Below, in pieces: positions 6,666 through 34,327 of a stretch of 34,327 bases of DNA. The stretch lies in the NCBI GenBank assembly GCA_004796425.1, contig QZLB01000017.1, positions 1 through 34,327 on the forward strand. The letters run 5' to 3'. A program made the translations under genes and the position numbers. Origin of the DNA: Desulfobulbaceae bacterium. Its GTDB lineage: Bacteria > Desulfobacterota > Desulfobulbia > Desulfobulbales > Desulfocapsaceae. The notes under the pieces are model-generated. The model was not told the origin of the DNA and made no database searches. It worked only from the letters and a program-made list of their open reading frames with translations. Every line of letters starts with the position of its first letter. Positions within the stretch are counted from its first letter, which is position 1.

Positions 6666-7115
6666 TCACAAAACAACGATGGATACACCGGGGTTGTTAA
6701 AATCTGAGGTACACAGGCGTTCCAGGGTTGGATATTGCCTGAGCAACCCTTTGCCAGGCCCGCTTTTGCGTTTAAAGGCTTCCCCGGCGATTGCGCTTTT
6801 AATCGTGCCCTTCTGCTGATAGAAGGCCAGCATCTTTCTACATTCCTCTTTAATCAGTCCGCCTTTACCTGAGGAGCCATAGCCATGGATTAAGGTTAAG
6901 ACCTTTACCCGCTGCTGACAGGCCTGGCTGATACCCTGTTCCAGCTTACGCATGGCGGTGGCCACGGTGGGTCTGCCATATTCGAGGTTGACGATTCGGT
7001 GCAGTTGGTAGGCTGACTTTGTTTCATCACTCTTTTGCTGCAGATCCTCCCCACAGAACTTGCAGGTTGAGGCGGATCGCTCCACCTTATTGCCACATGT
7101 CGGGCAGATCATCAT
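6666..7115 (-). CDS. Zinc-ribbon plus Smr-like domain protein
   Basis: 149 residues (148 if the second of two adjacent ATG codons is used). An N-terminal zinc ribbon is clear: CPTCG near residues 4-8 and CKFCG near 17-21. The rest resembles an Smr domain, with LTLIHGYGSSGKGGLI (about 74-89) in place of the IHGxGxG motif and a final GVSIVVL strand. The LDLHG motif of active Smr nucleases is changed to VNLEYG, so nuclease activity is doubtful. Smr proteins act on branched DNA or, in SmrB, cut mRNA at collided ribosomes. It begins directly after the stop of the Phd-like gene with no gap, implying coupled translation. The Smr assignment is by motif recognition only. Confidence 0.65.
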   Translation of the reverse strand: MMICPTCGNKVERSASTCKFCGEDLQQKSDETKSAYQLHRIVNLEYGRPTVATAMRKLEQGISQACQQRVKVLTLIHGYGSSGKGGLIKEECRKMLAFYQQKGTIKSAIAGEAFKRKSGPGKGLLRQYPTLERLCTSDFNNPGVSIVVL

Positions 7116-7397
7116 CTATTCTTCAACATCCTGACAATGCAGCAACGCTCCTAAATCGGTAATAGCTTTTTCCAGCTTCTTAGAGCGGGGGCCCTTAATG
7201 CGCTTGACCAACGTCTGGTATGCTTCAACAATTTCGGGACTGGCCACCGTAACCGGAGTGGTCTGCTCGATGGGTACCAGGGCCGCCATCGAACGGTTTG
7301 AGCGCTGAATAATAAAAGTCTCCTGAAGCAGGGAGACCTCGTTGAGTAGCAAGCCGAAATTTTTCCTGGCGTACATCGCTGTTATTGTTTTCCCCAC
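7116..7397 (-). CDS. Phd/YefM-family antitoxin-like protein
   Basis: 93 residues. The N-terminus from the GTG at 7397 (MGKTITAMYARKNFGLLLNEV) and the following FIIQRSNRSMAALVPIE match the Phd/YefM DNA-binding fold, whose members repress their own operon and neutralise a toxin through a C-terminal tail. GTG is chosen over an in-frame TTG at 7415 because a GGAGAG site lies 6 nt upstream and the family N-terminus then begins correctly. No RelE, Doc or PIN toxin is adjacent; the coupled downstream gene is the Smr-like protein. The C-terminal half (KRIKGPRSKKLEKAITDLGALL) is unremarkable. It could be an orphan regulator instead of part of a toxin pair. Confidence 0.7.
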   Translation of the reverse strand: MGKTITAMYARKNFGLLLNEVSLLQETFIIQRSNRSMAALVPIEQTTPVTVASPEIVEAYQTLVKRIKGPRSKKLEKAITDLGALLHCQDVEE

Positions 7398-7460
7398 GTC
7401 TCCCTCTCCAAGCAAATAGTGATGTTCTAAGCGTACCCGATAATGCGGCTGGTGGTCCGG

Positions 7461-9671
7461 TTATGAGCGTCGAACCGAGATGACATGTTCCATCTGACGC
7501 AGATGCTGCATCAGCAATTGCAGGTGATCCAGATCCCTTACTTCCAGGACGATGGTAAAGTCGACCGTGTCAGCCGGTGTGGTGGTCGCTGAAATTTCGA
7601 TAATGGTGGCGTTATCCACGCCAATGGCAGAACTGATCTCGCCAAAAATACCCTTGTTGTTTTCAGTCGATACCTGAATTTCCGCACGATATTGCTGGCT
7701 TTCGGCATTGGACCAGTACACCTCCATCCAGCGCTGCGGATCGGTGGAAAGCAGGTTCGGGCAATCAGCCTTGTGGACCGAGACACCACGGCCGGTGGTG
7801 ATAAAACCGACAATCAGATCACCCGGTACCGGGTTGCAACACTGGCTGATTTTGATCAGCATATCATCAATACCGTCGATCTGAATAACTGAACCACTGC
7901 CCGATACCGGCGCCCGCTGTTGGCTGCTCATCGCAGCTGCCATTTCCTCGGGGCTCATCGGTGCCTGCAGGGCTTCCTGTTCCTGTCCACTTTCCGGTGG
8001 CTCAAGCGCCTTCACCAGGGTCTGAATAGTGATCACGCCGCTCCCCACCTTCACCAGCATGTCGTCCAGGGAGTTGCACTTGAGCATTTTGCACAGCGCC
8101 TTGATATGCCCCGTTTTGATCATGCGCTTCAGGGTCATATCGTACTTCTTCATCTCCCGTTCGCAGATCTCACGGCCAAGCCTCAAAGCCTTTTCCTTCT
8201 CCTCACGACGCAGCCATGAGCGGATGCGGGTCCGAGCTCTGCCGGTTTTAACAAAATCGAGCCAGCCTCTGCGGGGCCGCTGTTTGGGCGAGGTGATGAT
8301 CTCGACGATATCACCATTCTGCAAATGGTATTTGAGCGGCACCAGTTTGCCGTTAACCTTGGCTCCGGTACAGCGATCGCCTACTTCAGTATGTATCGAG
8401 TAGGCAAAATCGATTGGGCAGCTCTGGGCCGGAAATTCCTTAACTTCGCCATTGGGCGTTAAGGCGTACACCTCCGGATCATGCAATTCGCCGCGGACCC
8501 GTTCCAGGAATTCACGCGGGTCTTCAACTTCCTGCAATGAGCTGACCAGGTTTTTCAGCTCCCTGAAGAGCTTGGCATCACCGTCATTGACCTTTTGGCC
8601 TTCTTTGTAGGCCCAATGTGCGGCAACACCCTCCTGGGCAACACGGTCCATTTCCTGAGTTCTGATCTGGATTTCGATAAAGTGTTCCCGCGGACCGATT
8701 ACGGTGGTGTGCATGGAGCGGTAATTGTTCGCCTTGGGTACCGAGATAAAGTCCTTAATACGGCCGGGAACCGGTGACCAGTTGGCGTGGATGATACCGA
8801 GTGATTCGTAACACTCGTTCACCGAGTTGACGATGATCCGGAAGGCAACTTTATCGTAAACCCGCTCAAGTGGTATATTCTGGGCGATCAGCTTCTTATA
8901 GATCGAGTAGAGATGTTTGGGTCTGCCCAGGATGCGGATCGGGATGATATTACCCGTTCCCAGTTTCTCGTAGAGGATGGAAATTACTTCCTCCACATAT
9001 CGCTCACGCTCGCTTAGTGAGGATTCGAGTCGGGCATTTAAATCCTCGTACTCGGCGGGATAAAGAAACTTAAAGGAGAAATCCTCGAGCTGGCGTTTGA
9101 GCCAGTCGATACCCAGTCTGCTTGCCAGCGGTGCGTAGAGATCCATGGTCTCGTGGGCCACGTAGCGCTGCATGTCTCGATCGACCAGATCGAGCAGCAG
9201 CATATCCTGCAACCGGTCGACCAGTCGCACCAGTAGAACGCGAATATCAACCGCCATGGCCAACAGCATCTTACGCACGTTTTCGGCCTGGCTGGAGAGT
9301 TTTGAGTTGTAGTGCAGGCTGGTGGTAATCCGGGTGGTACCTTTTACGATGTGGGCCACATCTTTGCCGAATTTTCGTTCCAGCTCTTCCGGCTCAACCC
9401 CGTTTTTCAGCACCCCGTGGAGCAACCCGGCGATGATGGTATCGAGATCGAGGTGCATGGAGGCAAGGGTGGAAGCAACCTCCAAGGCATGAATCAGGTA
9501 GGGTTCGCCGGAAAAGTGCCGGCCACCCTGATGCGTTTCAACGGCCAATTCCCAGGCACGATCGATCGGTGACAGATCAATATCGTGCAGATAGTTGGCC
9601 GCCAGCAACTTCAGGCCGCCGGGGTTGACCATTGATGTGGAGATATCCATTGTCATGCCAGTCGTACTCAA
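7461..9671 (-). CDS. relA: RelA/SpoT-family (p)ppGpp synthetase, hydrolase centre degenerate
   Basis: 736 residues with the full long-RSH architecture: HD hydrolase domain (about 45-190), synthetase (about 235-355, with GRPKHLYSIYKK, Asp273, RIKD at 304-307 and Glu333 before IQIRT), TGS (about 400-460), a conserved CC-bearing zinc-finger segment near 609 and a C-terminal ACT domain (about 660-736). It transfers pyrophosphate from ATP to GDP or GTP on starved ribosomes. The hydrolase signature LLHDVVEDT is LLHGVLKNG (83-91), and RLHNM is RLQDM (153-157), so ppGpp hydrolysis is probably lost. Numbering uses the TTG at 9671; ATG codons at 9656 and 9650 are alternatives, and no ribosome site decides. 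It starts 8 nt after proS. Confidence 0.95.
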   Translation of the reverse strand: MSTTGMTMDISTSMVNPGGLKLLAANYLHDIDLSPIDRAWELAVETHQGGRHFSGEPYLIHALEVASTLASMHLDLDTIIAGLLHGVLKNGVEPEELERKFGKDVAHIVKGTTRITTSLHYNSKLSSQAENVRKMLLAMAVDIRVLLVRLVDRLQDMLLLDLVDRDMQRYVAHETMDLYAPLASRLGIDWLKRQLEDFSFKFLYPAEYEDLNARLESSLSERERYVEEVISILYEKLGTGNIIPIRILGRPKHLYSIYKKLIAQNIPLERVYDKVAFRIIVNSVNECYESLGIIHANWSPVPGRIKDFISVPKANNYRSMHTTVIGPREHFIEIQIRTQEMDRVAQEGVAAHWAYKEGQKVNDGDAKLFRELKNLVSSLQEVEDPREFLERVRGELHDPEVYALTPNGEVKEFPAQSCPIDFAYSIHTEVGDRCTGAKVNGKLVPLKYHLQNGDIVEIITSPKQRPRRGWLDFVKTGRARTRIRSWLRREEKEKALRLGREICEREMKKYDMTLKRMIKTGHIKALCKMLKCNSLDDMLVKVGSGVITIQTLVKALEPPESGQEQEALQAPMSPEEMAAAMSSQQRAPVSGSGSVIQIDGIDDMLIKISQCCNPVPGDLIVGFITTGRGVSVHKADCPNLLSTDPQRWMEVYWSNAESQQYRAEIQVSTENNKGIFGEISSAIGVDNATIIEISATTTPADTVDFTIVLEVRDLDHLQLLMQHLRQMEHVISVRRS

Positions 9672-9679
9672 ACCTTATT

Positions 9680-11380
9680 TCATCCAGTGAGCAATTTCTG
9701 CACCTGGCTAACTATCTCGTCTGGGCTTACGTCTTGCACCAGTCCATCGCGTCTTCTGCACAACTCTACCTGGCCGCTTTCCAGGAAGCGCTTACCAACG
9801 GTCAGCCGCATCGGAAAGCCAAGCAGATCAGCATCTTTGAACTTCACACCCGGCCGCTCGTCACGATCATCAATAAAGACATCGAACCCTGCCTCCTGGA
9901 GTTTCTGGTAGAGAGCCTCCACGGTCTGGCAGATCGTTTCATCCTTGAGGCCAAGGTTAACAATGGTGATCTGGAACGGGGCCAGTGGTACCGGAAAGAT
10001 TATACCATTTCCATCATGATTTTGCTCGATACAGGCTGCAACAATTCGGCTGACACCGATACCGTAACAACCCATAACCAGCGGTTTCTCATTTCCTTCA
10101 CTGTCCTGGTAAAAGGCCTTCATGGACTCGGAATAAGAGGTGCCCAGTTTAAAGATGTGGCCGACCTCGATGCCTTCTACCAAGCGAATGGTGCCGCCAC
10201 AGGTCGGGCACGGATCAGATTCGGTGATTTGCCGGATATCGACTACTTCGCTCACTTCAAAATCGCGGCCTGCATTAACGTTTAACAGGTGGAAATTCTT
10301 CTCGTTGGCACCCACGGCAAAGTTGGGGGTATTCACTACTTCCTGGTCTGCGATCAGTCTGATTTTAATACCCACGGGGCCAAGATAGCCGGTGGGGACA
10401 CCGGTGGCATCAAAGACCGCTTTGTCATCTGCCATTACCAGATCGGTGACGTTCAGGTGATTTTTCAGCTTCACCTCTTCCACCTCACGATCACCGCGCA
10501 GCAATACGGCCACCGGTTCATCGTCGGCCAGGTAGACCAGGGTCTTGACCAGCTCTGAGGGTTTGATGTTAAGAAATTCACAGACGACCCCGACTTTGCG
10601 TTTACCCGGGGTTTCGATCTTACTCATTTCCTGCAACTCTACCCCTTCGGGTTTTGGAGCAGGTACGACCACCGCTTTTTCCGAGTTGGCGGCATAGCTG
10701 CACTCGTTACAAACGGCGATGGTGTCCTCACCGGTTTCGGCAAGAACCATAAATTCGTGGGAGAAACTGCCGCCGATGGTGCCGGAGTCTGCCTCCACAC
10801 AGCGGAAATCGAGCCCGCACCGCTCAAAGATTCGGTTATAGGCGTCATGCATTTTCTGGTACGATACTTCAGCACCGGCATCATCCACATCAAAGGAATA
10901 GGCATCCTTCATGATGAACTCGCGACCACGCATTAAGCCAAAGCGCGGGCGGATCTCGTCGCGGAATTTGGTCTGAATCTGGTAAAGATTTACCGGCAGA
11001 TCGCGATAGGAGTGAAATTCTCTACGAGCGATGTCAGTGATGACCTCCTCGTGGGTCGGTCCGAGGCAGGATTCGCGCTCATGGCGATCGGTAAAGCGCA
11101 GGAGCTCAGGGCCATATTTGATATAACGACCGCTTTCCTGCCACAGATCGGCCGGCTGGACCATTGGCATCATCAGCTCTTGGGCTCCAGCCCGGTTCAT
11201 TTCTTCCCTGACGATGTTCTCCACGCGCCGGATTGCGGCAAGACCATACGGCATATAGGTATAGATACCGGAGGTCAATTTACGAATGAAGCCAGCTCTG
11301 AGCATCAGTTTATGGCTGATAACCTCAGCCTCGGCTGGTACTTCCTTAAGGGTCGGAATCAACATCTGGGAATAGCGCAT
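9680..11380 (-). CDS. proS: Prolyl-tRNA synthetase
   Basis: 566 residues, the length of the bacterial-type class II enzyme with an editing (INS) domain inserted between motifs 2 and 3. Visible are the N-terminal [12 protein letters not shown], motif 2 ([19 protein letters not shown]), the insert (about 225-400), motif 3 ([13 protein letters not shown]) and the anticodon-binding domain at the C-terminus. It charges tRNA-Pro in the cytoplasm and edits mischarged Ala-tRNA-Pro. ATG start; a weak AAGGA lies about 12 nt upstream. It sits between ispG and relA, so a charging enzyme and the starvation-signal synthetase appear to share a transcript. Confidence 0.97.
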
Positions 11381-22895: not shown

Positions 22896-22915
22896 CCGTA
22901 TATAGTTCTCAGCCT

Positions 22916-23545
22916 TTATTTCGAGTAAAGTTCAACAATGAGCTGCTCCTGAATCGGCATGGTCAATTCTTCGCGATTCGGCATTGCCTTGATTGTTGCT
23001 TTGTAACTGTCTTTGGTTAATTCAATCCAGCTTGGTACGCCCCGTCTCTCTACTGCTTCGAGGCTCTCGTTAATAAGCGGGTTTGCCCTGCTCTTTTCCT
23101 TGATGGTGATCTCATCGCCTACAGAAACCAGGAAAGACGGTACATTTACCTTCCGGCCATTAACCATGATATGTTTATGTCTAACCAACTGCCGGGCCTG
23201 GTTCCGGGATGAGGCAAAACCCATCCGGAAAATGGTGTTGTCCAGTCTGCGCTCAAGCAGTACCAGCAGATTTTCACCGGTTACACCTTTCTGCCGGTCA
23301 GCCTTCTTAAAATTCTGTCTGAACTGTCCTTCAAGCATACCGTACATCGACTTGACTTTCTGCTTCTCACGAAGCTGAACTGCGTAGTCAGACTGTTTAC
23401 GGAACCTCGCCTGGCCATGCTGACCAGGGCCAAAGGTTCTTCTTTCAAAAGAGCATTTATCAGAGTAACATCGGTCACCCTTCAAAAACATTTTCAAACC
23501 TTCTCTTCTGCAACGCCTGCACGCTGCACCTGTATATCTAGCCAA
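22916..23545 (-). CDS. rpsD: 30S ribosomal protein S4 (zinc-type)
   Basis: 209 residues. S4 nucleates 30S assembly and in E. coli represses the alpha operon. The N-terminus has four Cys (CRRCRREG, then CYSDKC within residues 9-31), the zinc-binding form; an S4 RNA-binding domain follows ([22 protein letters not shown]). The start is TTG at 23545, giving the canonical MARYTG N-terminus, with GGAGG 6 nt upstream; no nearby ATG fits. Confidence 0.97.
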
Positions 23546-23597
23546 CTTATGCCTCCGTTGATTAATAAGCTGTTATCTAAGAGTGGCTGTCTCCAAC

Positions 23598-23996
23598 CTA
23601 TACGCGGCGACGCTTGGGTGGCTTACATCCATTGTGAGGAACTGGAGTAACATCATAAATCTTGGTTACTTCAAGTCCGGTGCTTACCAATGCGCGGAGC
23701 GCTGCTTCACGTCCCGGTCCAGGTCCTTTAACCTTTACCTCGACCTTGCGCATGCCCTGGTCAGTCGCCTTCTTTGTTGCATCAGCAACCGCGTTCTGCG
23801 CAGCAAAAGGAGTACTTTTTCGGGATCCTTTGAACCCGAGCACACCGGAACTGCACCATGAGATTACATTGCCCTGCTTATCTGAAATCGTGACAATGGT
23901 ATTGTTGAAGGTCGAATAGATAAAAACGATACCTTCCGGTACATTCTTTTTGACCTTACGTTTGGATTTGGTTTCAGTCTTCTTCGCAGCTACCAT
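23598..23996 (-). CDS. rpsK: 30S ribosomal protein S11
   Basis: 132 residues. S11 is on the 30S platform at the mRNA exit. The core [16 protein letters not shown], the [11 protein letters not shown] segment and the C-terminal [19 protein letters not shown] are unmistakable. A Lys-rich N-terminal arm (residues 4-18) precedes the fold. ATG with AGGTAA upstream. It lies between rpsM and rpsD as in the standard alpha operon. Confidence 0.98.
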
Positions 23997-24017
23997 GATA
24001 TTACCTGTGTTATTCGT

Positions 24018-24383
24018 TTATTTCCGGCGAGCGGCGCCACGACGTGGGCCTTTTCTTGTCCGGGCATTGGTCTTTGTCTTTTGTCCACGACAGGGCAGTC
24101 CCATACGATGGCGTCTGCCTCGATAACAACCCAAATCCATCAGCCGCTTGATATCCATGGATACTTCGCGACGACGATCACCTTCCACGATGTATTCATC
24201 CTCAATTACCTTCCTGATCCGCGTGACGTCATCACCACTCAGGTCATCACTGTTCATCGTGTAGGGAAGGTCAACTGAATCGAGTATTTTTCTGGCGGAC
24301 GTTATTCCGATTCCGTGAATATACGTCAGAGCCCGATCAATATGTTTATTTTTAGGAAGGTCAACTCCTGCTATACGTGCCAA
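24018..24383 (-). CDS. rpsM: 30S ribosomal protein S13
   Basis: 121 residues. S13 sits in the 30S head and contacts the P-site tRNA and the 50S A-site finger. [21 protein letters not shown], the [20 protein letters not shown] segment and the basic tail [15 protein letters not shown] are typical. The start is TTG at 24383 with AAGGAG 8 nt upstream; starting here gives the canonical N-terminus. Confidence 0.98.
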
Positions 24384-24429
24384 GGTATTTCTCCTTTCAC
24401 AGAATATTTACTGGTATGCAGATCTAACT

Positions 24430-24543
24430 CTAACCTTGTCTCTGCTTATGCTTCTTAACTTTACAGGACACGCGAACAACGCCGTTGCGCTTATATACTT
24501 TGCAGTCACTGCACATTTTCTTTACGGAAGATCGTACTTTCAT
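24430..24543 (-). CDS. rpmJ: 50S ribosomal protein L36 (zinc-type)
   Basis: 37 residues read directly from the minus strand: it begins [17 protein letters not shown] and ends KKHKQRQG. Zinc ligands are Cys11, Cys14, Cys27 and His32, so this is the C+ form. ATG at 24543 has GAGGTGG about 4 nt upstream, and the stop is TAG. It lies in its usual place between infA (10 nt away) and rpsM. Confidence 0.95.
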
Positions 24544-24553
24544 GATACCACCT

Positions 24554-24790
24554 CTATTTTTTCTTCTTGGCGTTTTTCGCCCTGAACGTGACACGGCCAC
24601 GGCTCAGATCATAGGGTGAAAGCTCTATCGTCACCCGGTCTCCTGGCAAGATTTTAATAAAATGCATGCGCATTTTGCCGGAAATATGGGCAAGTACCTT
24701 ATGCCCATTGTCCAATTCGACTCTGAACATGGCGTTGGGCAACGGCTCGATGATCGTGCCCTCCACTTCTATTGCTTCTTCCTTAGCCAT
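24554..24790 (-). CDS. infA: Translation initiation factor IF-1
   Basis: 78 residues. IF-1 is a single OB fold that blocks the A site during initiation. [32 protein letters not shown] and the [23 protein letters not shown] segment are family-typical. A Lys-rich tail (NAKKKK) adds a few residues over the 72-residue E. coli protein. ATG start without a strong ribosome site. It sits between map and rpmJ. Confidence 0.97.
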
Positions 24791-24868
24791 AAATTTTTCC
24801 GAATATCAATATTTGCCAAAAGGGCGTAATTATAATACACCTCATCAGAAAAGAGAAGTATTATTTAA

Positions 24869-25627
24869 CTAACCAACAAAATTAGCACGAGAACTCAGGA
24901 TCAACGGCCCGTCTGCGGTTACCGCGATCGAGTGCTCGAAATGGGCTGAAGGCTTTTTGTCGGCGGTGATTACAGTCCAGCCGTCTCGAAGCACTTTCAC
25001 TTTAAAGGTGCCCACATTCACCATTGGCTCAATGGCCAACACCATTCCTTCCATCAATCTCGGAGATGGTTCATTCTGTATAAAATTCGGGATTTCCGGT
25101 CCTTCATGCAGCGAGGTACCGATCCCGTGACCGACGAATTGTCTGACCACGGAAAACCCGTTTGTCTCTACATGCTTCTGTACTGCTACCGAGATATCTG
25201 AAATCCGGTTACCGGGGACGACTTTCTCTATCGCCTGATCAAGTGATTCGGCGGTAACCTCAAGCAGTTTCTTCTTGGTCGAATCGATTTTATCCACCGG
25301 AATGGTAATCGCGGAATCACCATAGTACCCCTTGTAATGGGTTCCGAAATCGACCGAGATGATATCTCCTTTTTTTAACTTCCGTTTGCGTGATGGAATA
25401 CCATGCACGACTTCTTCATTTACCGAAACACAGAGGCTTCCGGGAAACCCCCGATATCCTTTGAAGGCGGGTACTGCCTTGCGCTTCCGGCATAAATCTT
25501 CTGCTGCCCGATCCAGATCCCAGGTGGAGACGCCCGGTTCCACCATGTTTTGCAGCATTACCAGTACTTCTGCAACAATCTGGTTGGCCTCCTGCATGAT
25601 TTTAATCTCATCAGGATTTTTCACCAT
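24869..25627 (-). CDS. map: Methionine aminopeptidase, type I
   Basis: 252 residues from the ATG at 25627. Map removes the initiator Met from nascent proteins. Metal ligands are visible: the two Asp in SVDFGTHYKGYYGDSA, His in VGHGIGTSLHEGPEIPN, and the two Glu in LAIEPMV and HFEHSIAVT. The ATG starts the protein at MVKNPDEIKIMQEA like relatives. However, a TTG at 25675, just past the secY stop, has a perfect AAGGAG 6 nt upstream and would add 16 residues, so the true start is unsettled. It follows secY directly; adk, often between them, is absent. Confidence 0.95.
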   Translation of the reverse strand: MVKNPDEIKIMQEANQIVAEVLVMLQNMVEPGVSTWDLDRAAEDLCRKRKAVPAFKGYRGFPGSLCVSVNEEVVHGIPSRKRKLKKGDIISVDFGTHYKGYYGDSAITIPVDKIDSTKKKLLEVTAESLDQAIEKVVPGNRISDISVAVQKHVETNGFSVVRQFVGHGIGTSLHEGPEIPNFIQNEPSPRLMEGMVLAIEPMVNVGTFKVKVLRDGWTVITADKKPSAHFEHSIAVTADGPLILSSRANFVG

Positions 25628-25677
25628 GACCGACTTCCCCGCAGGAGTATTTGCGCTGCTGCAAGAAGCGGTCAAAC

Positions 25678-26982
25678 CTATCTCCTTCCTTTGATACGCC
25701 CCTGCTTCATGAAACCTTCGTAGTTTCTCATCACAAGATGTGATTCTATCTGGGAGATCGTATCAATTGCCACACCGACGATAATCAGCAGGGCGGTACC
25801 GCCAAAATAAAATGGCAGATTCAATTTGGAGATCAGGATGGTCGGCAGTACACAAACGGCACTGAGATAAATCGCACCAACCACCGTCAAGCGTGTTAAG
25901 GCCTTGTCGATAAATTCAGCGGTTTTCTTACCTGGTCTGATACCTGGAATGAAACCACCGTTCTTTTTCAGATTCTCCGCCACATCATCGGGCTTAAACT
26001 GGACCGCCGCGTAGAAGAAACAGAAGAAGACAATCATGCCGACAAAGGCGATATAGTAATATACCGTACCCGGTGACATGGCCGCCGATACCCGTTGAAC
26101 CCAGTCAATCTGGATAAAGGAACCGATGGTTGCCGGGAACATCATAATTGAAGAGGCAAAGATCGGCGGAATAACACCTGAAACATTGATTTTCAATGGC
26201 AGATGCGAACTCTGGCCGCCATAGACTCGTCGACCAACGACCCGCTTGGCATATTGAATCGGAATACGTCGCTGGGCCGTCTCAAAGAAGACGATCAGGC
26301 CGATGATACCAACCATCATCAGGATGATAAACGGTACAAAAAATACTTGAATCTCGCCTGCCTTGACCAATTCGTAGGAATTAACCAGTGCAGAAGGTCC
26401 GCGAGCGACAATACCTGCGAAGATGATCAGTGAAATGCCGTTACCGACCCCACGCTCGGTCATCTGCTCACCAAGCCACATGATAAAAGCAGTACCAGCC
26501 GTCAGGGTGGTCATGGTCATCAGTTTAAACTGCAAACCGGGATCGAGTACGATCATCTCACCGGATGGACCGGACATGCCCTCCAGACCAACGGCGATAA
26601 AGGAGCCCTGGATCACACTGAGGACCACGGTTCCATATCGGGTATACTGGGTGATTTTCCGTTGACCGGCTTCACCTTCTTTTTTCAGTGCTTCGAGCTG
26701 CGGAATAACTACGGTCATCAGCTGCATGATAATGGATGCACTGATGTACGGCATGATTCCCAGAGCAAAAATAGAGAAATTCTCTAGTGCACCACCGGAA
26801 AACATATTGAACATGCCAAACAGCGTGCCCGCATTCTGCTCGAAAAAGGCCCTGAGAGCATCACTGTTAATACCAGGGGTTGGTACCTGCACACCAATTC
26901 GGTATACGGCCAACATAATAATGGTAAAAAGCAGCCGTTTTCTTAACTCAGGTATTTGTGCTGCGCTTTGTATTCCGCTCAT
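25678..26982 (-). CDS. secY: Protein translocase subunit SecY
   Basis: 434 residues, ten membrane helices, the channel of the Sec translocon. The N-terminal RKRLLFTIIMLAVYRIGVQVPTPG, the plug region (FNMFSGGALENFSIFALGIMPYI), and cytoplasmic loops TERGVGNGISLIIFAGI and AQRRIPIQYAKR (ribosome and SecA contacts) are clear. ATG start with a poor ribosome site. Unusually, a strong intrinsic terminator lies between rplO and this gene with no room for a new promoter, so SecY level may depend on read-through. Confidence 0.98.
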   Translation of the reverse strand: MSGIQSAAQIPELRKRLLFTIIMLAVYRIGVQVPTPGINSDALRAFFEQNAGTLFGMFNMFSGGALENFSIFALGIMPYISASIIMQLMTVVIPQLEALKKEGEAGQRKITQYTRYGTVVLSVIQGSFIAVGLEGMSGPSGEMIVLDPGLQFKLMTMTTLTAGTAFIMWLGEQMTERGVGNGISLIIFAGIVARGPSALVNSYELVKAGEIQVFFVPFIILMMVGIIGLIVFFETAQRRIPIQYAKRVVGRRVYGGQSSHLPLKINVSGVIPPIFASSIMMFPATIGSFIQIDWVQRVSAAMSPGTVYYYIAFVGMIVFFCFFYAAVQFKPDDVAENLKKNGGFIPGIRPGKKTAEFIDKALTRLTVVGAIYLSAVCVLPTILISKLNLPFYFGGTALLIIVGVAIDTISQIESHLVMRNYEGFMKQGRIKGRR

Positions 26983-27015
26983 ATCGTAAGGTCCTGCCTG
27001 GAAACCCCGGATCTA

Positions 27016-27044
27016 ATAAAAAGGCAGGGGAACATCCCCCTGCC
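27016..27044 (-). terminator. Intrinsic terminator inside the spc operon (rplO-secY)
   Basis: On the minus strand GGCAGGGG (27044-27037) pairs perfectly with CCCCTGCC (27030-27023) around a 6-nt loop and is followed by TTTTTATT. The 8-bp GC-rich stem begins 18 nt after the rplO stop and ends about 35 nt before the secY ATG. Confidence 0.85.
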
Positions 27045-27062
27045 ATTGCGTTTGCCCTGTTA

Positions 27063-27524
27063 CTATTCAGCAGCTTCTGGTGCTGCTTCAGTCACCACCG
27101 TGCCACCCGCCTTTTCAATCTGCGCTTTGGCACCAGCACTCACTTTATCCACCTTAACAGTGACACCGGTTGAGATTTCGCCATTGGCCAGAACCTTCAC
27201 CAGCTGTCCTGCCTTGGCAAACCCGGCCTCAACCAACACTTCATTGGTGATCTCCTGTCCAGCCTCGAAGCTATCGAGCTGACTGAGGGTGATCAGTGAG
27301 TAAACCTTCTTGAATTTATTATGAAAACCGCGCTTAGGAAGCCTGCGCTGGAGCGGCATCTGGCCACCCTCAAACCCAGGTTTGGATTTGTAACCCGAGC
27401 GTGATTTCGCACCTTTATGTCCGCGGCCAGCAGTTTTACCGTGGCCGGATCCCTCTCCACGACCGACGCGTTTCTTCTGTCGTCTGGAACCTTCTGCGGG
27501 AGACAGATTACTGAGATTAATCAT
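27063..27524 (-). CDS. rplO: 50S ribosomal protein L15
   Basis: 153 residues. L15 is a 23S-binding assembly protein with a long glycine- and arginine-rich extension. INLSNLSPAEGSRRQKKRVGRGEGSG, GRGHKGAKSRSGYKSKPGFEGGQMPLQRRLPKRGF and a C-terminal KVDKVSAGAKAQIEKAGG are diagnostic; a short Ala/Glu tail ends it. ATG abuts the rpmD stop with GGAGG 5 nt upstream. Confidence 0.98.
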   Translation of the reverse strand: MINLSNLSPAEGSRRQKKRVGRGEGSGHGKTAGRGHKGAKSRSGYKSKPGFEGGQMPLQRRLPKRGFHNKFKKVYSLITLSQLDSFEAGQEITNEVLVEAGFAKAGQLVKVLANGEISTGVTVKVDKVSAGAKAQIEKAGGTVVTEAAPEAAE

Positions 27525-27707
27525 TTAAACCTCCTCTATACGAACGAGATGCTCAACTTTTGCAAGCATTCCCCTGATCTCAGGGGTGTCTTTTCGCGTA
27601 ACTTTCTTCTGCATCTTGGTCAGACCGAGTCCGGTAAGGGTTGCACGAATTTTCTTTGTGCTGCCGATCCCGCTCTTTACCAGTGTGAATGTGATTGTAT
27701 CAGCCAT
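27525..27707 (-). CDS. rpmD: 50S ribosomal protein L30
   Basis: 60 residues. The ferredoxin-like small protein is recognised by ITFTLVKSGIGSTKKIRATLTGLGLTKM and VTRKDTPEIRGMLAKVEHLVRIEE. ATG start, weak GGTG site. It lies between rpsE and rplO with no gap to rplO, the standard order. Confidence 0.97.
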   Translation of the reverse strand: MADTITFTLVKSGIGSTKKIRATLTGLGLTKMQKKVTRKDTPEIRGMLAKVEHLVRIEEV

Positions 27708-27777
27708 TTGACTACACCATTATTCCCTAATAAATGCTTCGTCCTGTAATCGATTGACAGTAACAAACTGCCGACGA

Positions 27778-28290
27778 TCAGGCGGTGATTTCCTCTACTG
27801 TTTTGCCCCTCAGCTCAGCAATTTTCTGAGCGGTTCGCAAGGTTCTTAAACCATCAAGGGTAGCCTTGACCATGTTATGCGGATTATGAGAACCCAGACA
27901 TTTGGTCAAAATGTTGCTCACACCGGCGGCCTCAAGGACGGCGCGCACCGGACCACCGGCAATAACACCGGTACCAGCCGAGGCCGGTTTCAACAGCACC
28001 TTGCCTGCGCCATACCTGCCGATAATCTCGTGAGGAATGGATGTATCAGTCAGGGAAACCGAGGTCATATCTTTCCGTGCCCGCTCAATTCCTTTTCTGA
28101 TCGCTTCGGGTACCTGATTCGCTTTTCCGAGACCGTAACCAACCTTTCCGTTACCGTCGCCAACAACAACGATTGCACTGAAGCTGAATCGCCGACCACC
28201 TTTTACAACTTTTGCAACCCGATTGATATATACAATTTTTTCAATGAGTTCCTCAGTTGCTTCACTTTTGGAACGCTTAAACTCAGACAA
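27778..28290 (-). CDS. rpsE: 30S ribosomal protein S5
   Basis: 170 residues. S5 is a fidelity and helicase-site protein at the mRNA entry. [37 protein letters not shown] and the [32 protein letters not shown] segment are unmistakable. The start is TTG at 28290 with GGGGGTG about 5 nt upstream; no ATG precedes the fold in frame nearby. Confidence 0.97.
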
Positions 28291-28313
28291 GGGACACCCC
28301 CATATGTAACATA

Positions 28314-28679
28314 TTAAAATTCAAGCCCGCCTTCGCGAGCCCCATCGGAGAGAGACTTGACACGTCCCTGATATATATAGCCACCACGATCAAAAACCAC
28401 TTTGGTGATGCCTGCCGCCTTTGCACGCTCGGCGATTACCAGGCCCACTTTCTTGGCCGCTGATGTTTTGCCTTTCTCATCATCAGATTCGAACGCTTTA
28501 TCAACGGTCGACATTGATGCAAGGGTAACTCCAGAACTATCATCTATGATTTGAGCATAGATGTGCTTGCTGCTTTTGAACACACGCAAACGTGGCTGCT
28601 CACTTGTTCCGACAATCTTTTTGCGAATTCTTCGTACCCGTTTATTTCTTGCAACGGTACTGGGATTTGTTTTTGCCAT
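28314..28679 (-). CDS. rplR: 50S ribosomal protein L18
   Basis: 121 residues. L18 binds 5S rRNA. The basic N-terminus ([12 protein letters not shown]), [29 protein letters not shown] and the C-terminal [26 protein letters not shown] are typical. ATG start with only a weak purine stretch upstream. It is 23 nt upstream of rpsE. Confidence 0.98.
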
Positions 28680-28728
28680 TTTTCTATCTCAATCTATAAG
28701 ATTATGATCGTAAATCTCGTAGTTTAAA

Positions 28729-29274
28729 TTACGCTGCTGCGGCACCGGATTTTCCGACCTTGCGAACAATGTGCTCATCCTCGTACCTGATTCCCTTTCC
28801 TTTGTAGGGTTCGGGTTTCCTGACCGCACGGATCTGAGACGCCGTCATGCCAAGGACTTCCTTGTCGATCGACTCCAGTGTAATTTTGGTATTATTTTCC
28901 ACATCGGCACTCACGCCATCCGGCAAACTGAAATCAACCGGATTCGAGTAACCAACGCTCAGAGAAAGGCTCTTGCCAGAAACGGAGGCACGATACCCAA
29001 CTCCTTCGATGATTAAAACTTTCTTGAAACCTTCGGTCACACCAACCACCATGTTATTGATCAGTGACCGCATCAACCCCCGAAAGGCGTTGATTTTTTT
29101 ATCATTATCTCCACCAGTTACGACGATCTCATTATCTTTGAGTTCAACCGTAATTTCCGGGTGGATTGTACGACTTAAGCTGCCTTTAGAACCGGTTACC
29201 TTGATATCCTGACCTTTGAGATCAATTTTGACACCAGACGGTACCGGGATTGGCATTTTTCCAATTCGAGACAT
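28729..29274 (-). CDS. rplF: 50S ribosomal protein L6
   Basis: 181 residues, two tandem similar domains. L6 sits near the factor-binding centre. SRIGKMPIPVPSGVKIDL at the N-terminus, ALTRGLMRS-like NAFRGLMRSLINNMVVGVTEGFKK, VGYSNPVDFSLPDGV and the C-terminal KPEPYKGKGIRYEDEHIVRKVGKSG are diagnostic. ATG with GGAGG 5 nt upstream. Confidence 0.98.
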   Translation of the reverse strand: MSRIGKMPIPVPSGVKIDLKGQDIKVTGSKGSLSRTIHPEITVELKDNEIVVTGGDNDKKINAFRGLMRSLINNMVVGVTEGFKKVLIIEGVGYRASVSGKSLSLSVGYSNPVDFSLPDGVSADVENNTKITLESIDKEVLGMTASQIRAVRKPEPYKGKGIRYEDEHIVRKVGKSGAAAA

Positions 29275-29298
29275 GATTTCCTCCGTTACGTACCGGTG

Positions 29299-29697
29299 TT
29301 ACCAGACTTCGCAAAGAACTTCGCCCCCGGTATTCTGCTGCCGGGCTGCACGATCTGTGACAATGCCTTTAGATGTCGAGACAATCGCAATTCCAAGACC
29401 ATTCAATACGGTGGGTATGGAATTGGCCTTGGCATATTGCCTGAGTCCCGGTTTGCTCACCCGCTTAATACCGGTGATTACCGACTCGCCATCCGGACCG
29501 TATTTCAAATCGATATTCAGTGTTCCCTGGGGCCCTTCGTCGTTCACACTGTAATCGACGATGTAGCCTTCTTCTTTCAGAACCCGTGCAACATCAACTT
29601 TCACATTTGATTTCGGTATCGCAACCGAATCATATTTTACCATTACTGCATTTCTTATCCTGGTCAGCATATCTGCCAGTGGATCGCTCATAGACAT
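29299..29697 (-). CDS. rpsH: 30S ribosomal protein S8
   Basis: 132 residues from the ATG at 29697. S8 is a primary 16S binder and the translational repressor of the spc operon in E. coli. [15 protein letters not shown] at the start and [27 protein letters not shown] at the end are typical. The ATG is chosen because AAGGAG lies 8 nt upstream; an in-frame GTG at 29706 lies too close to that site. Confidence 0.98.
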
Positions 29698-29752
29698 AGC
29701 GAACACTCCTTAGTTTTCTAATCGTTTGACGCTCTCAGCGGTTGCCTGTTGG

Positions 29753-29938
29753 TTACCAGCTGGATTTTGTCACACCAGTTATCTGCCCGCTCGAAGCAAG
29801 TTTTCTGAAACAGATTCTGCATACACCGAATTTGCGCATATAGGCACGCGGTCGGCCGCACAGCGGACACCTGTTATATTTACGAACCTTGAATTTCGGT
29901 TCTTCCTTTGCTCGAGCAATAATTGATTTCTTAGCCAA
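29753..29938 (-). CDS. rpsN: 30S ribosomal protein S14, zinc type
   Basis: 61 residues, the short zinc-binding form. Ligands are CPLCGRP and CRICFRKL (two CxxC pairs). The N-terminus [16 protein letters not shown] is canonical for type Z. The start is TTG at 29938 with GGAGG 5 nt upstream. The long zinc-free form of E. coli is 101 residues. It lies between rplE and rpsH as in other bacteria. Confidence 0.97.
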
Positions 29939-29977
29939 ACCAACCTCCAGTAGCTCAATAATGAATCGTTAGCGAAA

Positions 29978-30517
29978 TTACTTTTTAAAAGGCATACCCA
30001 TCAATCTCAGCAGTGACCGACCTTCTTCATCGGTATTGGCAGAGGTCACGATGGTGATGTTAAACCCTTTAATTTTATCAATTTTATCGTAGTCAATCTC
30101 GGGAAAGATGATCTGCTCTTTAACCCCAAGAGAGTAATTGCCGCGACCGTCAAACCATTTTGGTGACATGCCTCGAAAGTCTCGTACACGAGGCAAGGCA
30201 ATGTTGACCAGCTTGCTCAAAAATTCGTACATCCGGTCACCTCTGAGCGTTACCCGACAGCCGATGGGCATACCTTCTCTGAGTTTAAAACCGGCAATGG
30301 ATTTCTTTGCCTTGGTCACGACCGCTTTCTGGCCGGCAATTCTGGTCAGTTCCTGGACAGCTCCATCAATAATTTTTGGATTCTGGACTGCCTCCCCAAG
30401 CCCCATGTTCAGAACAATCTTCTCAAGCTTGGGTACCTGCATAATATTCGTGTAGCTATGCTCTTCTTTCAATGCAGGAACACATTCGTTGTAATAATAA
30501 TCTTTGAGCGCACCCAT
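29978..30517 (-). CDS. rplE: 50S ribosomal protein L5
   Basis: 179 residues. L5 binds 5S rRNA and bridges to S13. [51 protein letters not shown] and the C-terminal [28 protein letters not shown] are diagnostic. ATG with CAGGAG 6 nt upstream. Confidence 0.98.
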
Positions 30518-30551
30518 TTATAACTCCTGGCGTAAGCCTTAGACGTAACTG

Positions 30552-30884
30552 TTATTTACTCTCGATTGATTCGCCGCACTTTTTGCAGACACGAACCTTG
30601 GTACCATCATCGAGTATCTTTTTCCCGATTCTTCCGGTCTGTGTACACTCCGGACAAATCAGCTGCAGATTGGAAACATGAATCGGCGCCTCTCGCTCTA
30701 CGATCTGGCCCTGCTGATTCATTTCACGCGGTTTGGTGTGTCGCTTAATCATGTTGATACGTTCAACCGTCGCCTTGTTCTCCGCAGGAAATACCTTGAG
30801 CACCTTACCAACTCTGCCCTTATCCTTTCCGGCAATCACTTCAACCTGATCATCTGCCTTAAGGTATGTTCTACCTATTCTCAT
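30552..30884 (-). CDS. rplX: 50S ribosomal protein L24
   Basis: 110 residues. L24 is an assembly initiator with a KOW motif ([20 protein letters not shown], about 14-33). NMIKRHTKP follows, and four Cys near the end ([11 protein letters not shown] and CKKCGES) form an apparent zinc ribbon seen in many bacterial L24 proteins but absent from E. coli. ATG start with AGGTAAG upstream. Confidence 0.97.
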
Positions 30885-30928
30885 TTTCTTACCTATCTAC
30901 CTGTGCTTTAACCGTAATTCCCACAGCC

Positions 30929-31297
30929 CTAGAGCACTTCAGGGGCAAGAGAAATAATCTTCATGAAACCTTGGTTTCTCAGTTCTCGCGCAACCGGACC
31001 AAAAATACGGGTACCGATCGGCTCACCAGTTGCAGAGAGGATTACCGCCGCATTCTCGTCAAACTTGACCCAGGTGTCATCCATCCGTTTCATCGATTTT
31101 GCTGTACGGACGATGACCGCCTTCATCACATCGCCTTTTTTTACCTTGGCGTGCGGGATGGCTTCTTTGACGGTTACGACAATTACATCACCGATACCGG
31201 CATATCTTTTTCTGGTGCCGCCGAGAACCCGAATACACAGAACCTTTTTGGCTCCAGAGTTGTCAGCAACATTTAGCATTGTTTCTGTTTGTATCAT
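30929..31297 (-). CDS. rplN: 50S ribosomal protein L14
   Basis: 122 residues from the ATG at 31297, the universal length. L14 lies at an intersubunit bridge. [19 protein letters not shown], the [22 protein letters not shown] segment and C-terminal [20 protein letters not shown] are typical. AGGTGA 5 nt upstream of this ATG decides the start, although the frame is open to 31354. It is the first gene of the spc block. Confidence 0.98.
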
Positions 31298-31328
31298 AGT
31301 GTCACCTGATTCTAGATCAGCATAACCC

Positions 31329-31344
31329 GGTGCCGCGAGGCACC
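31329..31344. repeat. Hairpin in the rpsQ-rplN gap
   Basis: GGTGCC and GGCACC form a perfect 6-bp stem with a 4-nt loop; flanking bases may extend it. It lies 16 nt past the rpsQ stop and about 30 nt before rplN, at the S10/spc boundary. There is no T-tract. Confidence 0.5.
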
Positions 31345-31360
31345 TGAGTAACAATTCGTG

Positions 31361-31624
31361 TTAGACGACCGCCTGTTCAAGGATAGATTTAATCCGCCAA
31401 CGCTTCCGCTTGCTCAACGGTCGACATTCTTCGATCAGAACAACATCACCAATATTGCATTTGTTCTCTGGATCATCGGCGAGATACTTGACGCTGGTTT
31501 TCACATATTTGCCATAAAGCTTATGTCGAAACTTTCGTTCAACCCGAACAACGACGCTTTTTTCCATCCTGTTGCTGACAACAGAACCAGTCCTTGTTTT
31601 TCTCGATTTTTTATTTTCGCTCAT
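31361..31624 (-). CDS. rpsQ: 30S ribosomal protein S17
   Basis: 87 residues. S17 is an OB-fold primary 16S binder. KTRTGSVVSNRMEKSVVVRVERKFRHKLYGKYVK and DVVLIEECRPLSKRKRWRI are diagnostic. ATG start with no strong ribosome site. It lies between rpmC and rplN. Confidence 0.98.
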   Translation of the reverse strand: MSENKKSRKTRTGSVVSNRMEKSVVVRVERKFRHKLYGKYVKTSVKYLADDPENKCNIGDVVLIEECRPLSKRKRWRIKSILEQAVV

Positions 31625-31686
31625 AATGTAATTTCAAGATCTAGTAGCGCGTAAAATGATATGTACTATTCACTAACCGTCGTGGC

Positions 31687-31875
31687 TTAGAGTCCTTTTT
31701 CAGCAGTAACTGTTCTGATGCGCGCAATATCTTTTTTAATTTTTTTCAGTCGTGAGGTATCTTCGAGCGGCCTGATCTTATGTTGAAAGGTCAGGTTGCC
31801 AAACTCTTCTCGAAGTTCGTTTTCTTTTTTTACGAGATCCTCATCGGACATTTTTCTAATTTCATCCGTTTTCAT
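31687..31875 (-). CDS. rpmC: 50S ribosomal protein L29
   Basis: 62 residues, a two-helix protein at the tunnel exit that helps dock SRP and trigger factor. [26 protein letters not shown] and the closing [18 protein letters not shown] match the family. Its ATG overlaps the rplP stop as ATGA; AGAGGA lies 7 nt upstream within rplP. Confidence 0.97.
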
Positions 31876-32288
31876 AGCACATTCCTCTTAGACACAACCT
31901 TTGTCGCAAAGGGAAGCTTGTTTCCTGCCAGAGTAAGCGCCCGCACTGCAAGTTCTTCATCGACGCCTGCCAGCTCATAGAGGACTTTGCCAGGTTTAAT
32001 CGGTGCGACCCAAAATTCAGGGCTACCTTTACCTTTACCCATCCTGGTCTCAGCAGGTTTCTTGGTGACTGGCTTGTCCGGGAAAACCCTGATCCAAACT
32101 TTACCACCACGTTTGATTTTCCTGTTAATAGCAACACGGCCTGCTTCAATCTGCTGTGCAGTCATCTTGCCGCTGGTGACAGCTTTGAGCGCAAAATCGC
32201 CAAATGAAATCGAGGATCCTCTTTGTGCGTTGCCTCTCAGCCTACCCTTGAATACTTTTCTATGTTTTACCTTTCTTGGACTTAGCAT
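31872..32288 (-). CDS. rplP: 50S ribosomal protein L16
   Basis: 138 residues. L16 sits by the A-site tRNA elbow. [84 protein letters not shown]-type core and the [22 protein letters not shown] end are diagnostic. ATG with GGGGTAAG upstream. It overlaps rpmC by 4 nt. Confidence 0.98.
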
Positions 32289-32344
32289 GTCTTACCCCAA
32301 AAAATTACCTGCAAAGAGATCGTGTGGACAGTGGGCGCGAAGCG

Positions 32345-32992
32345 TTATTCTTCCATCGCGTCCTGGTCGTCCAGAACTTCTCCATTAAATATCCAAACCT
32401 TCACCCCAATGATGCCGTAAGTGGTGTTGGCTTCAGCCAGTGCATAATCAACATCTGCTCTGAGTGTGTGCAGTGGTACACGACCTTCACGAACCCATTC
32501 GCAGCGAGACATCTCAGCGCCACCGAGTCGGCCCGAACAGGAAATCTTGATTCCCTGGACACCAAATCTCAGCGCCGAGTTGACGGCTTTTTTCATCGCT
32601 CTTCTGAAAGCCACACGCCGAATCAGTTGAGAAGCAATATTCTCAGCAACCAGCTGTGCGTCGGCTTCAGGTCTTCTCACTTCCTGAATATCAAGTGTGA
32701 CCGGCCGGGCGACGAATTTCTCAAGATCCTTCTTCAGGGTCTCGATTTCAGCACCCTTCTTGCCAATGACAATGCCAGGACGTGCGGTGAACAATTTAAC
32801 CCGAATCTTTTCCCCGGTGCGCTCGATGATAATTTTTGAGAGCCCGGCATGAAAGAGACGTTTTTTTAAGTACTTCCGAATCTTCTGGTCTTCGATCAGG
32901 TACGATGGATACTCTTTATCCGCATACCAGATTGAATCCCAGGTACGGGTAATATTCAGTCTTAGTCCTAGTGGATTAACCTTCTGGCCCAA
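32345..32992 (-). CDS. rpsC: 30S ribosomal protein S3
   Basis: 215 residues. S3 forms the mRNA entry with S4 and S5. [13 protein letters not shown] at the N-terminus, the KH motif ([20 protein letters not shown]) and the [34 protein letters not shown] segment are unmistakable. The start is TTG at 32992, which gives the canonical N-terminus and has GGAGG 6 nt upstream. Confidence 0.98.
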
Positions 32993-33069
32993 AACAATCC
33001 TCCAACTGAGTACGTGTTTATTTTCTAAAATTAAGTTTAATTACTTCAACTTAAACAGTTTACCCTACG

Positions 33070-33402
33070 TTACACTTCATCAAGAATGACGGTGATATGG
33101 CTGGTCCGTTTAATGATTCCGGTTGCCCTGCCCATCGCTCTTGGCCTGATCCGTTTCAGAGATGGTCCACCATCGATGAAAATCTTCTTGATGAACAGAT
33201 TATCCACATCAACCTGATCGTCCTGGGTTGCATTCGCAACAGCTGATTCGATCACCTGGCGAAGGATTCCCGCTGGTTTTTTCGGCATGAATTTCAGGGT
33301 GGTGATTGCCTTATCAACATTCATTCCCCGAACCACATCTGCAACCAGCCTGGTTTTCTGTGGCGAAACTCTGATATATTTCGCTACGGCTCGTGATTCC
33401 AT
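33070..33402 (-). CDS. rplV: 50S ribosomal protein L22
   Basis: 110 residues from the ATG at 33402, the E. coli length. L22 lines the exit tunnel; its beta-hairpin tip lies in PSLKRIRPRAMGRATGIIKRTSHITVIL. ESRAVAKYIRVSPQKTRLVADVVRG is the classic N-terminus. A GGGAG site 8 nt upstream decides for this ATG over an in-frame TTG at 33417. Confidence 0.98.
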   Translation of the reverse strand: MESRAVAKYIRVSPQKTRLVADVVRGMNVDKAITTLKFMPKKPAGILRQVIESAVANATQDDQVDVDNLFIKKIFIDGGPSLKRIRPRAMGRATGIIKRTSHITVILDEV

Positions 33403-33442
33403 TATCTGTACTCCCAATGCGTTCTGTCAAAAAACAGATTCT

Positions 33443-33712
33443 TTACTTTTTCCTGTCCGATGCATGACCATAATAGGTCCTGGTCGGAGAGAACTCACCG
33501 AGCTTGTGCCCTACCATGTTTTCGGAAACAAATACCGGGACAAATTTTCGACCATTGTGAACCGCGAATGTCAAACCAACCATCTCAGGACTAATGTCGG
33601 ATCTTCTTGACCATGTCTTGATGACTTTACGCGATCCTGATTCGATGGCATCTTCAACCTTCTTCATCAGGTGATCATCGATAAATGGACCCTTTTTTAC
33701 TGAACGAGACAT
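33443..33712 (-). CDS. rpsS: 30S ribosomal protein S19
   Basis: 89 residues. S19 sits in the 30S head with S13. [67 protein letters not shown]-type core and the HASDRKK end are typical. ATG with AGAGGAG about 5 nt upstream. It is 13 nt from rplB. Confidence 0.98.
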
Positions 33713-33725
33713 TATCTACTCCTCT

Positions 33726-34327
33726 TTACGATCTACGTTTGACAATCATTTTGTCAGAAGCTTTTCTATTTCTGGTTTTATAACCTTTGGTCGGCTTACC
33801 CCATGGAGTACATGGATGTCGGCCACCTGAACTCTTACCTTCACCACCGCCCATCGGATGATCAACCGGGTTCATTGCCACACCACGCACGTGCGGTCTG
33901 CGTCCGAGCCAGCGGGACCTTCCGGCCTTGCCAAGCTTGCGGCTCTCATACTCACGGTTACCAACCTGACCAATGCAGGCGCGGCAGAGATTGTTGAATT
34001 TGCGAACCTCGCCTGAGGGCAGTCGAACCAGGACATAGTTGCCCTCTTTGGCCATCAACTGAGCTGAGGCACCGGCACTGCGGACAAGCTGTCCACCTTT
34101 GCCGATTTTCATCTCGATATTATGAATGATGGTACCCAGCGGGATATTGACCATCGGCAGACAGTTGCCAGGCTGGATATCCACATTATCGCCTGCGACA
34201 ACTTTGTCGCCAACTGCAATACCATCCGGGGCGAGAATGTATTTCTTCTCACCATCGAGGTAACTCAGCAGTGCGATGTTCGCGGATCGATTTGGATCAT
34301 ATTCAATCGAAACAACTTTAGCCGCAA
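33726..34327 (-). CDS. rplB: 50S ribosomal protein L2, C-terminal part, cut by window edge
   Basis: About 200 residues to the stop at 33726; the reading frame is open to the right edge, so the N-terminal 70 or so residues are missing. L2 is essential for subunit joining and peptidyl transfer. [58 protein letters not shown] and the C-terminal [21 protein letters not shown] with the conserved His are diagnostic. Confidence 0.98.

Follow-up and report, generated by a model that had tools for sequence, protein, structure and literature searches.

A Rel of Desulfobulbales predicted to be a dedicated (p)ppGpp synthetase, and its candidate hydrolase-only partner

The window, i.e. the whole stretch of 34,327 nucleotides that was analysed, carries the gene of a long RSH whose (p)ppGpp hydrolase site looks dead and whose synthetase site is complete. 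The reading that we favour, and that sequence comparisons make very probable, is that this protein is a Desulfobulbales Rel that now serves only to synthesize (p)ppGpp (a Rel[hS]), and that a second long RSH of the same genome, the [Hs] protein of contig C28, is its partner and hydrolyses (p)ppGpp in trans. Presumably acting at starved ribosomes, the window protein would synthesize (p)ppGpp and be unable to remove it; the C28 protein would do the 3'-pyrophosphohydrolase job and be unable to make (p)ppGpp. The host genome is a 4.4 Mb draft from a Desulfofustis-like member of the order, and the closest relative found is Desulfofustis glycolicus DSM 9705 (80% identical).

The window protein and its two catalytic sites

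Table 1. Features of the relA locus (positions are those of the window; residue numbers are those of the window protein unless Rel_Seq is named)
Feature	Position	Strand	Remarks
Long RSH (RelA-like), predicted synthetase-only, Rel[hS]	7461..9671	-	736 aa, TTG start at 9671
Alternative ATG start of the same ORF	9656	-	731 aa
Pseudo-hydrolase HD_4 domain, residues 39-188	9108..9557	-	Pfam and key-residue alignment
RelA_SpoT synthetase domain, residues 249-359	8595..8927	-	14/14 key residues intact
TGS domain, residues 402-460	8292..8468	-	Pfam
C-terminal AH/RIS (473-648) and ACT_4 (658-735)	7467..8255	-	Pfam; ribosome-sensing half by analogy
His52 where Rel_Seq has Arg44	9516..9518	-	Alignment to Rel_Seq
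Degenerate HD motif LLHGVLKNG, residues 83-91	9399..9425	-	Asp78 to Gly86, Glu81 to Lys89, Asp82 to Asn90; His77 kept as His85
Degenerate motif RLQDM, residues 153-157	9201..9215	-	His147 to Gln155, Asn148 to Asp156; Asp144 kept as Asp152 just ahead
Catalytic Asp273 (Rel_Seq D264)	8853..8855	-	Alignment
RxKD motif, RIKD 304-307	8751..8762	-	Sequence reading
Catalytic Glu333 (Rel_Seq E323)	8673..8675	-	Alignment
proS (prolyl-tRNA synthetase), directly upstream of relA	9680..11380	-	Same strand as relA
Smr-domain protein, zinc-ribbon and Smr, downstream of relA	6666..7115	-

The gene product (Table 1) has the long RSH layout (HD-SYNTH-TGS-helical-CC/ZFD-ACT) and scores 681.7 bits, against a cut-off of 499.2, with the NCBIfam model of the RelA/SpoT subfamily (TIGR00691); it does not rise above the cut-off of either of the two NCBIfam equivalog models, the bifunctional SpoT-type and the RelA-type. 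Its AlphaFold model (mean pLDDT 70.8, pTM 0.47) is good for the HD domain and parts of the SYNTH domain, and poor for the TGS domain. The modelled catalytic half compares with the Rel structures 8acu, 7oiw, 24io and 1vj7 at TM values of 0.83-0.88 (by target), and the model can be taken to confirm the fold only. Activation by ribosome and tRNA would go through the TGS/ZFD/ACT half.

Besides proS, ispG is found directly upstream of the window relA. At all 75 named loci with enough upstream DNA, proS lies less than 300 bases from relA, and a Smr-domain gene is present 3' of relA at 66 of the 67 with enough downstream DNA: a ribosome-linked enzyme has the Smr-domain protein as its conserved neighbour. 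A small ORF (7116-7415, minus strand) that separates relA from the Smr gene gave a weak match to Phd/YefM antitoxins (24.3 bits, below the cut-off), and such a match was found 3' of relA at just 11 of the 67 named loci. From 22,900 to 34,327, ORFs of at least 150 aa are sparse compared with the remainder of the window.

Residue equivalences were taken from an alignment to Rel_Seq (1vj7), to other solved Rels and to E. coli SpoT. The key hydrolase residues of Rel_Seq, R44 H53 H77 D78 E81 D82 D144 N148, read H H H G K N D D in the window protein, i.e. three of the eight are kept (H61, equivalent to H53, together with H85 and D152). Which of them bind the metal and which are catalytic is presumably as assigned by Hogg et al. 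2004. The preliminary description had seen LLHDVVEDT turned into LLHGVLKNG and RLHNM into RLQDM, and the alignment bears out each of these replacements. Among the residues that it gave as remaining, His61, His85 and Asp152 stand; Arg51 does not, because Rel_Seq R44 aligns to His52, Arg51 being one residue off that position and not conserved. The site is therefore more damaged than first described. According to a study of A. baumannii SpoT, a single substitution of E82, D83 or N147 abolishes hydrolysis in that enzyme (PMC9974481); these are the sites of E81, D82 and N148, and the window protein is altered at all three plus one metal ligand.

The preliminary description had also found Asp273 and Glu333 of the synthetase to look intact, and the alignment agrees: all 14 synthetase residues are present, including these two catalytic ones, and the motif is RIKD and not ExDD. 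Bifunctional Rel/SpoT enzymes carry RxKD, and the synthetase-only RelA of beta/gamma-proteobacteria carries ExDD. On these motifs, Atkinson et al. 2011 (PMC3153485) cite Sajish 2009. The window protein hence combines lost hydrolase residues with kept synthetase residues, and the intact hydrolase residues expected of a Rel[HS] are not there.

The C28 partner and the conservation of the pair in Desulfobulbales

The preliminary description had argued that the cell would need a separate hydrolase and had proposed a search of the same genome for a second long RSH with an intact HD site. There is one. The genome contains two PF13328 (HD_4) proteins and two PF04607 (RelA_SpoT) proteins, which are the same two genes, and the only HD_4 protein other than the window protein is the long RSH of contig C28, a 728-residue open frame. 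Its hydrolase residues are all in place (8/8, RHHDEDDN) and only 4 of its 14 synthetase residues are left (D264 to T, E323 to L, Q325 to K, RxKD to TxRD); the lysine-bearing stretch of the nucleotide site is lost as well. Intact hydrolase residues with lost synthetase catalytic residues are what defines an [Hs] protein. Pfam recognised HD_4, a weak RelA_SpoT and TGS in it, and gave no RIS or ACT match. A small alarmone hydrolase was also considered as the trans hydrolase; the genome is without one, both PF13328 matches being long RSHs.

The same kind of partner, hereafter type A, was read in 42 Desulfobulbales genomes out of 42 (the host, 30 named genomes and 11 further order members), always with 8/8 hydrolase residues and a dead synthetase; in the 30 named genomes it is in each case a second long RSH. 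Another 50 named genomes were examined by HMM counts, and all but one had a second HD_4 protein, which brings the named total to 79 of 80, the exception (G359) being a 1.7 Mb MAG with a decayed Rel. In an even sample of the order, at least two HD_4 proteins were present in 113 of 117 genomes (mostly HMM counts). The remaining four are G390, G430 and G434, drafts 90-95% complete with a decayed Rel and no second HD_4 match, and G391, with one weak HD_4 match only. Altogether 53 type A partners were read, and all 53 have the eight hydrolase residues and have lost the synthetase catalytic residues. Some relatives carry short HD_4 proteins or extra short synthetases, the constant one being the long partner. 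Several larger Desulfobulbales genomes hold both short synthetase-like and short HD_4 proteins (L150, L152 and extra PF04607 matches), so that the alarmone network there is bigger than the pair.

On the side of the Rel, 80 named Desulfobulbales homologues were read residue by residue. All 80 have Gly for D78 and Asp for N148; Lys or Arg replaces E81 in 79, and His replaces R44 in 76; H53 and H77 are retained in 80 and D144 in 79; the synthetase residues and RxKD are all present in 80. The loss thus marks the whole order, which answers the question, raised in the preliminary description, of whether it marks a clade. The replaced states (G86, D156 and mostly K89) are nearly fixed across the order, save that the deep families, with the same decay, have more varied replacement letters. 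In 14 close pairs, dN/dS of the pseudo-HD domain was 0.045-0.142, against 0-0.091 for the synthetase domain: the pseudo-HD domain is under purifying selection. Given this selection, and D78G and N148D in 80 of 80 relatives, the pattern is not due to chance.

Such constraint bears on two other readings. One is that the window protein is still bifunctional, with His61, His85 and Asp152 binding Mn2+ and the altered site slowly hydrolysing (p)ppGpp or another nucleotide. The strong constraint on the domain would agree with it, as would the His-His-Asp metal triad, kept in 113 of the 118 decayed Rels read in the phylum (90 of 92 in Desulfobulbales, 23 of 26 elsewhere). We nevertheless consider it improbable, since 88 of the 92 Desulfobulbales Rels have other residues at each of D78, E81, D82 and N148, a single change at one of the last three sites being enough to abolish hydrolysis by A. 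baumannii SpoT, and since a full hydrolase is maintained in trans. As the triad is so widely kept, decayed Rels may have residual metal binding, and the least decayed ones outside the order may have weak activity. The other reading is that the pseudo-HD is neutral wreckage on its way to being lost, without a role. That other families lost their catalytic residues in differing ways speaks for it; the low dN/dS and the near fixation of the replaced states speak against it, and in E. coli RelA the pseudo-hydrolase domain is reported to switch synthesis (PMC8012599). We hold it to be very improbable. The pseudo-HD of the Rel[hS] would rather persist as a conserved pseudo-enzyme that still folds and probably has an allosteric or structural role, and by analogy with E. 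coli RelA the domain with its His-His-Asp triad most likely stays a regulatory one.

Decayed Rels in other Desulfobacterota and the order of events

The loss recurs in other families of the phylum. The phylum sample comprised 296 genomes, 290 of them with an HD_4 protein, and the Rel was read in about 127 of these 290, the single-match genomes read being the strongest and weakest scorers and a few in between. Decayed Rels were found with a type A partner in families f37, f70 and f87, with a different long partner (type B) in f21, f45, f78 and f92, and with a shorter partner (type C) in f60 and f79. All 26 decayed Rels from outside Desulfobulbales keep the 14 synthetase residues, which makes RxKD present in 118 of the 118 decayed Rels read (92 and 26), and each of their 26 genomes also encodes a synthetase-dead partner in which the HD residues are complete (8/8). 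Among the 88 Rels read from genomes in which no partner of this kind was recognised, 87 have 8/8 hydrolase residues; the 88th (L170) is a frameshifted gene in which the HD piece is intact. The type C partners (L231, L232, L253, L254, L326 and L327, from f60, f79 and f96) are open frames of about 480-545 aa with an intact HD and a remnant synthetase. They resemble a long RSH that has been shortened and, to our knowledge, fit no known RSH subgroup.

A comparison of 89 intact Rels (the 87 above plus L185 and L303, see below) gave 47 HD columns conserved in at least 95% of them. The 118 decayed Rels lose D78, E81, D82 and N148 to varying degrees and keep E130, R133, D142, R144, R185 and E196 (window numbering) at 90-100%. 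The 53 type A partners, which keep the eight catalytic HD residues, have E130, D142, R144 and E196 at 0% and R185 at 6%. There is thus a mirror at the level of residues: much of what is gone from the Rel is retained by the partner, and vice versa.

A tree of 88 proteins was built with the hydrolase columns excluded and with members hand-picked for spread (19 of the 92 Desulfobulbales Rels, 26 of the 28 Rels of other partner-hosting genomes, 41 of the 88 remaining Rels and two E. coli proteins). The decayed Rels form four clades with intact Rels between them, the inter-clade branches being weak: Desulfobulbales (support 100/100), f37+f70+f87 (100/99), f21+f45+f78+f92 (100/100) and f60+f79+f96 (100/96), the last with two members still intact. 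The window protein is nested among Desulfobacterota Rels and descends within the Rel part of the tree, as a Rel[HS] would; E. coli RelA is found elsewhere, on a long branch whose exact place is unsure. Descent from the beta/gamma RelA/SpoT duplication is not what this tree gives, with E. coli RelA long-branched. The proposal that the window protein took an independent route to a dedicated synthetase is thereby upheld, and the interpretation as a whole is both supported and, by these residue comparisons, widened.

The tree also bears on a third alternative, namely that the window protein is a horizontally acquired RelA of the beta/gamma type or a second copy, and not the resident Rel. The functional outcome would indeed be that of RelA. 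Its position among Desulfobacterota Rels, its RxKD in place of ExDD and the linkage of proS and relA at 75 of 75 loci all go against an acquired RelA, and the host has no other synthetase-competent long RSH, so that we regard this alternative as extremely improbable. Among the other genomes read, only G412 has such an RSH. It is an additional Rel whose hydrolase and synthetase residues are all intact (L337, G412:C5:500-4500), beside the decayed Rel L351 of that genome, and is either a transfer or a contaminating contig.

A single clade of Desulfobulbales and f37/f70/f87 (the type A hosts) was not rejected (p 0.30); a tree constrained to unite all 45 partner-hosting rows gave an AU p of 0.043, for a group that was named after seeing the tree. 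A single origin of all decayed Rels was set aside on the basis of the four clades, with one clade only just disfavoured. There was at least one origin, and probably two to four. In a tree of the HD domains, in which long branches are in play, each partner type forms one clade (A 100/99, B 100/100, C 94/95), with A set apart from B and C. Type A also stands apart from E. coli SpoT and from the Rels, on a long branch, in this tree, which has no Moraxellaceae SpoT. By parsimony, the partner changed 4 times and the HD state 6 times. The independent-pairs sign test gave p 0.5; it had 2 pairs when restricted to supported branches, and 4 when all branches were used. With just 2 independent pairs significance is unreachable, and the co-occurrence of Rel decay and partner is therefore given as counts.

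Several living states suggest the order of events. Two type C hosts, L185 (f79) and L303 (f96), have a Rel in which the hydrolase site is still complete, and L308, of the same genus as L185, has a single change in its Rel, Glu81 to Ala. Among the type B hosts, L306 has only N148 changed to Asp and L189 only D82 changed to Glu. Since intact or nearly intact Rels are found beside partners, the partner can precede the decay of the Rel site. These states, which are not a dated series, suggest that the partner came first and the decay of the Rel later: an ancestor with a bifunctional Rel would already have had a hydrolase partner, and the HD site of its Rel would then have been freed from constraint.

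A wider scenario can be drawn, which we regard as possible and rather short of probable. In Desulfobacterota, the work of the bifunctional Rel would have been divided several times between a Rel that only synthesizes and a partner that only hydrolyses, always along the same path: presence of a partner of one of the three types, then decay of the catalytic Glu, Asp and Asn residues of the Rel, with the His-His-Asp triad and the synthetase kept. In Desulfobulbales, the pocket would then have become fixed as Gly86/Lys89/Asp156, perhaps with the lysine in place of the metal, and would control synthesis as a switch or alarmone sensor that does not hydrolyse.

Comparison with known RSH proteins

The components are of known kinds. 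Like RelA[hS] of beta- and gamma-proteobacteria, of which E. coli RelA is the example, the window protein is a long RSH with lost hydrolase residues, a complete synthetase core and a hydrolase in trans. The two differ in that E. coli RelA has 0/8 hydrolase residues and E.DD, whereas the window protein has the His-His-Asp triad, RxKD and a different place in the tree; their partners differ too, SpoT of E. coli being bifunctional and the C28 protein synthetase-dead. With Rel[HS], the window protein shares descent, domain layout, RxKD and the synthetase core, and differs by the loss of the hydrolase residues. The C28 protein resembles SpoT[Hs] of Moraxellaceae (A. baumannii SpoT, 7qpr) by its intact HD, lost synthetase catalytic residues and long RSH layout. 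It differs in that type A partners form a clade apart from E. coli SpoT in the HD tree and in having no ACT or RIS match; the Moraxellaceae pair is described as deriving from RelA/SpoT (PMC9974481).

In Atkinson et al. 2011 (PMC3153485), RelA[hS] is restricted to beta/gamma-proteobacteria, delta-proteobacteria are labelled Rel[HS], often with small RSHs, and RshD[HS] are second long copies in four delta genomes, those of Desulfotalea psychrophila and Syntrophobacter fumaroxidans grouping together at 100%. Judging by taxonomy, the C28 partner is probably an RshD. The [HS] label given to RshD there contrasts with the loss of the synthetase catalytic residues in 53 of 53 type A partners. An RSH inventory in which the delta copies are entered as Rel[HS] or RshD[HS] would give both members of the pair a wrong label, and the ppGpp physiology deduced for these sulfate reducers would be off as a consequence.

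Among the papers listed by searches of the open PMC literature, we found none that describes a Rel confined to synthesis together with a partner confined to hydrolysis. The pairing, its order-wide reach, its recurrence and the kept RxKD look new, and judged by its residues and place in the tree the window protein is best described as an independent subfunctionalisation of Rel that retains RxKD. If this is true, RxKD is compatible with a dedicated synthetase, and ExDD is a trait of a lineage and not a need. The system makes it possible to examine how a bifunctional enzyme is divided, whether a dedicated synthetase needs ExDD and why a dead hydrolase domain persists. The split between RelA and SpoT has been presented as a matter of beta/gamma groups that reached completion in Moraxellaceae; here, its mirror-image pair extends over an order of another phylum. 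Further origins number at least one, and probably several, and there are living intermediates such as two genomes of the same genus, both with a partner, one with an intact Rel and the other with a single Glu to Ala change.
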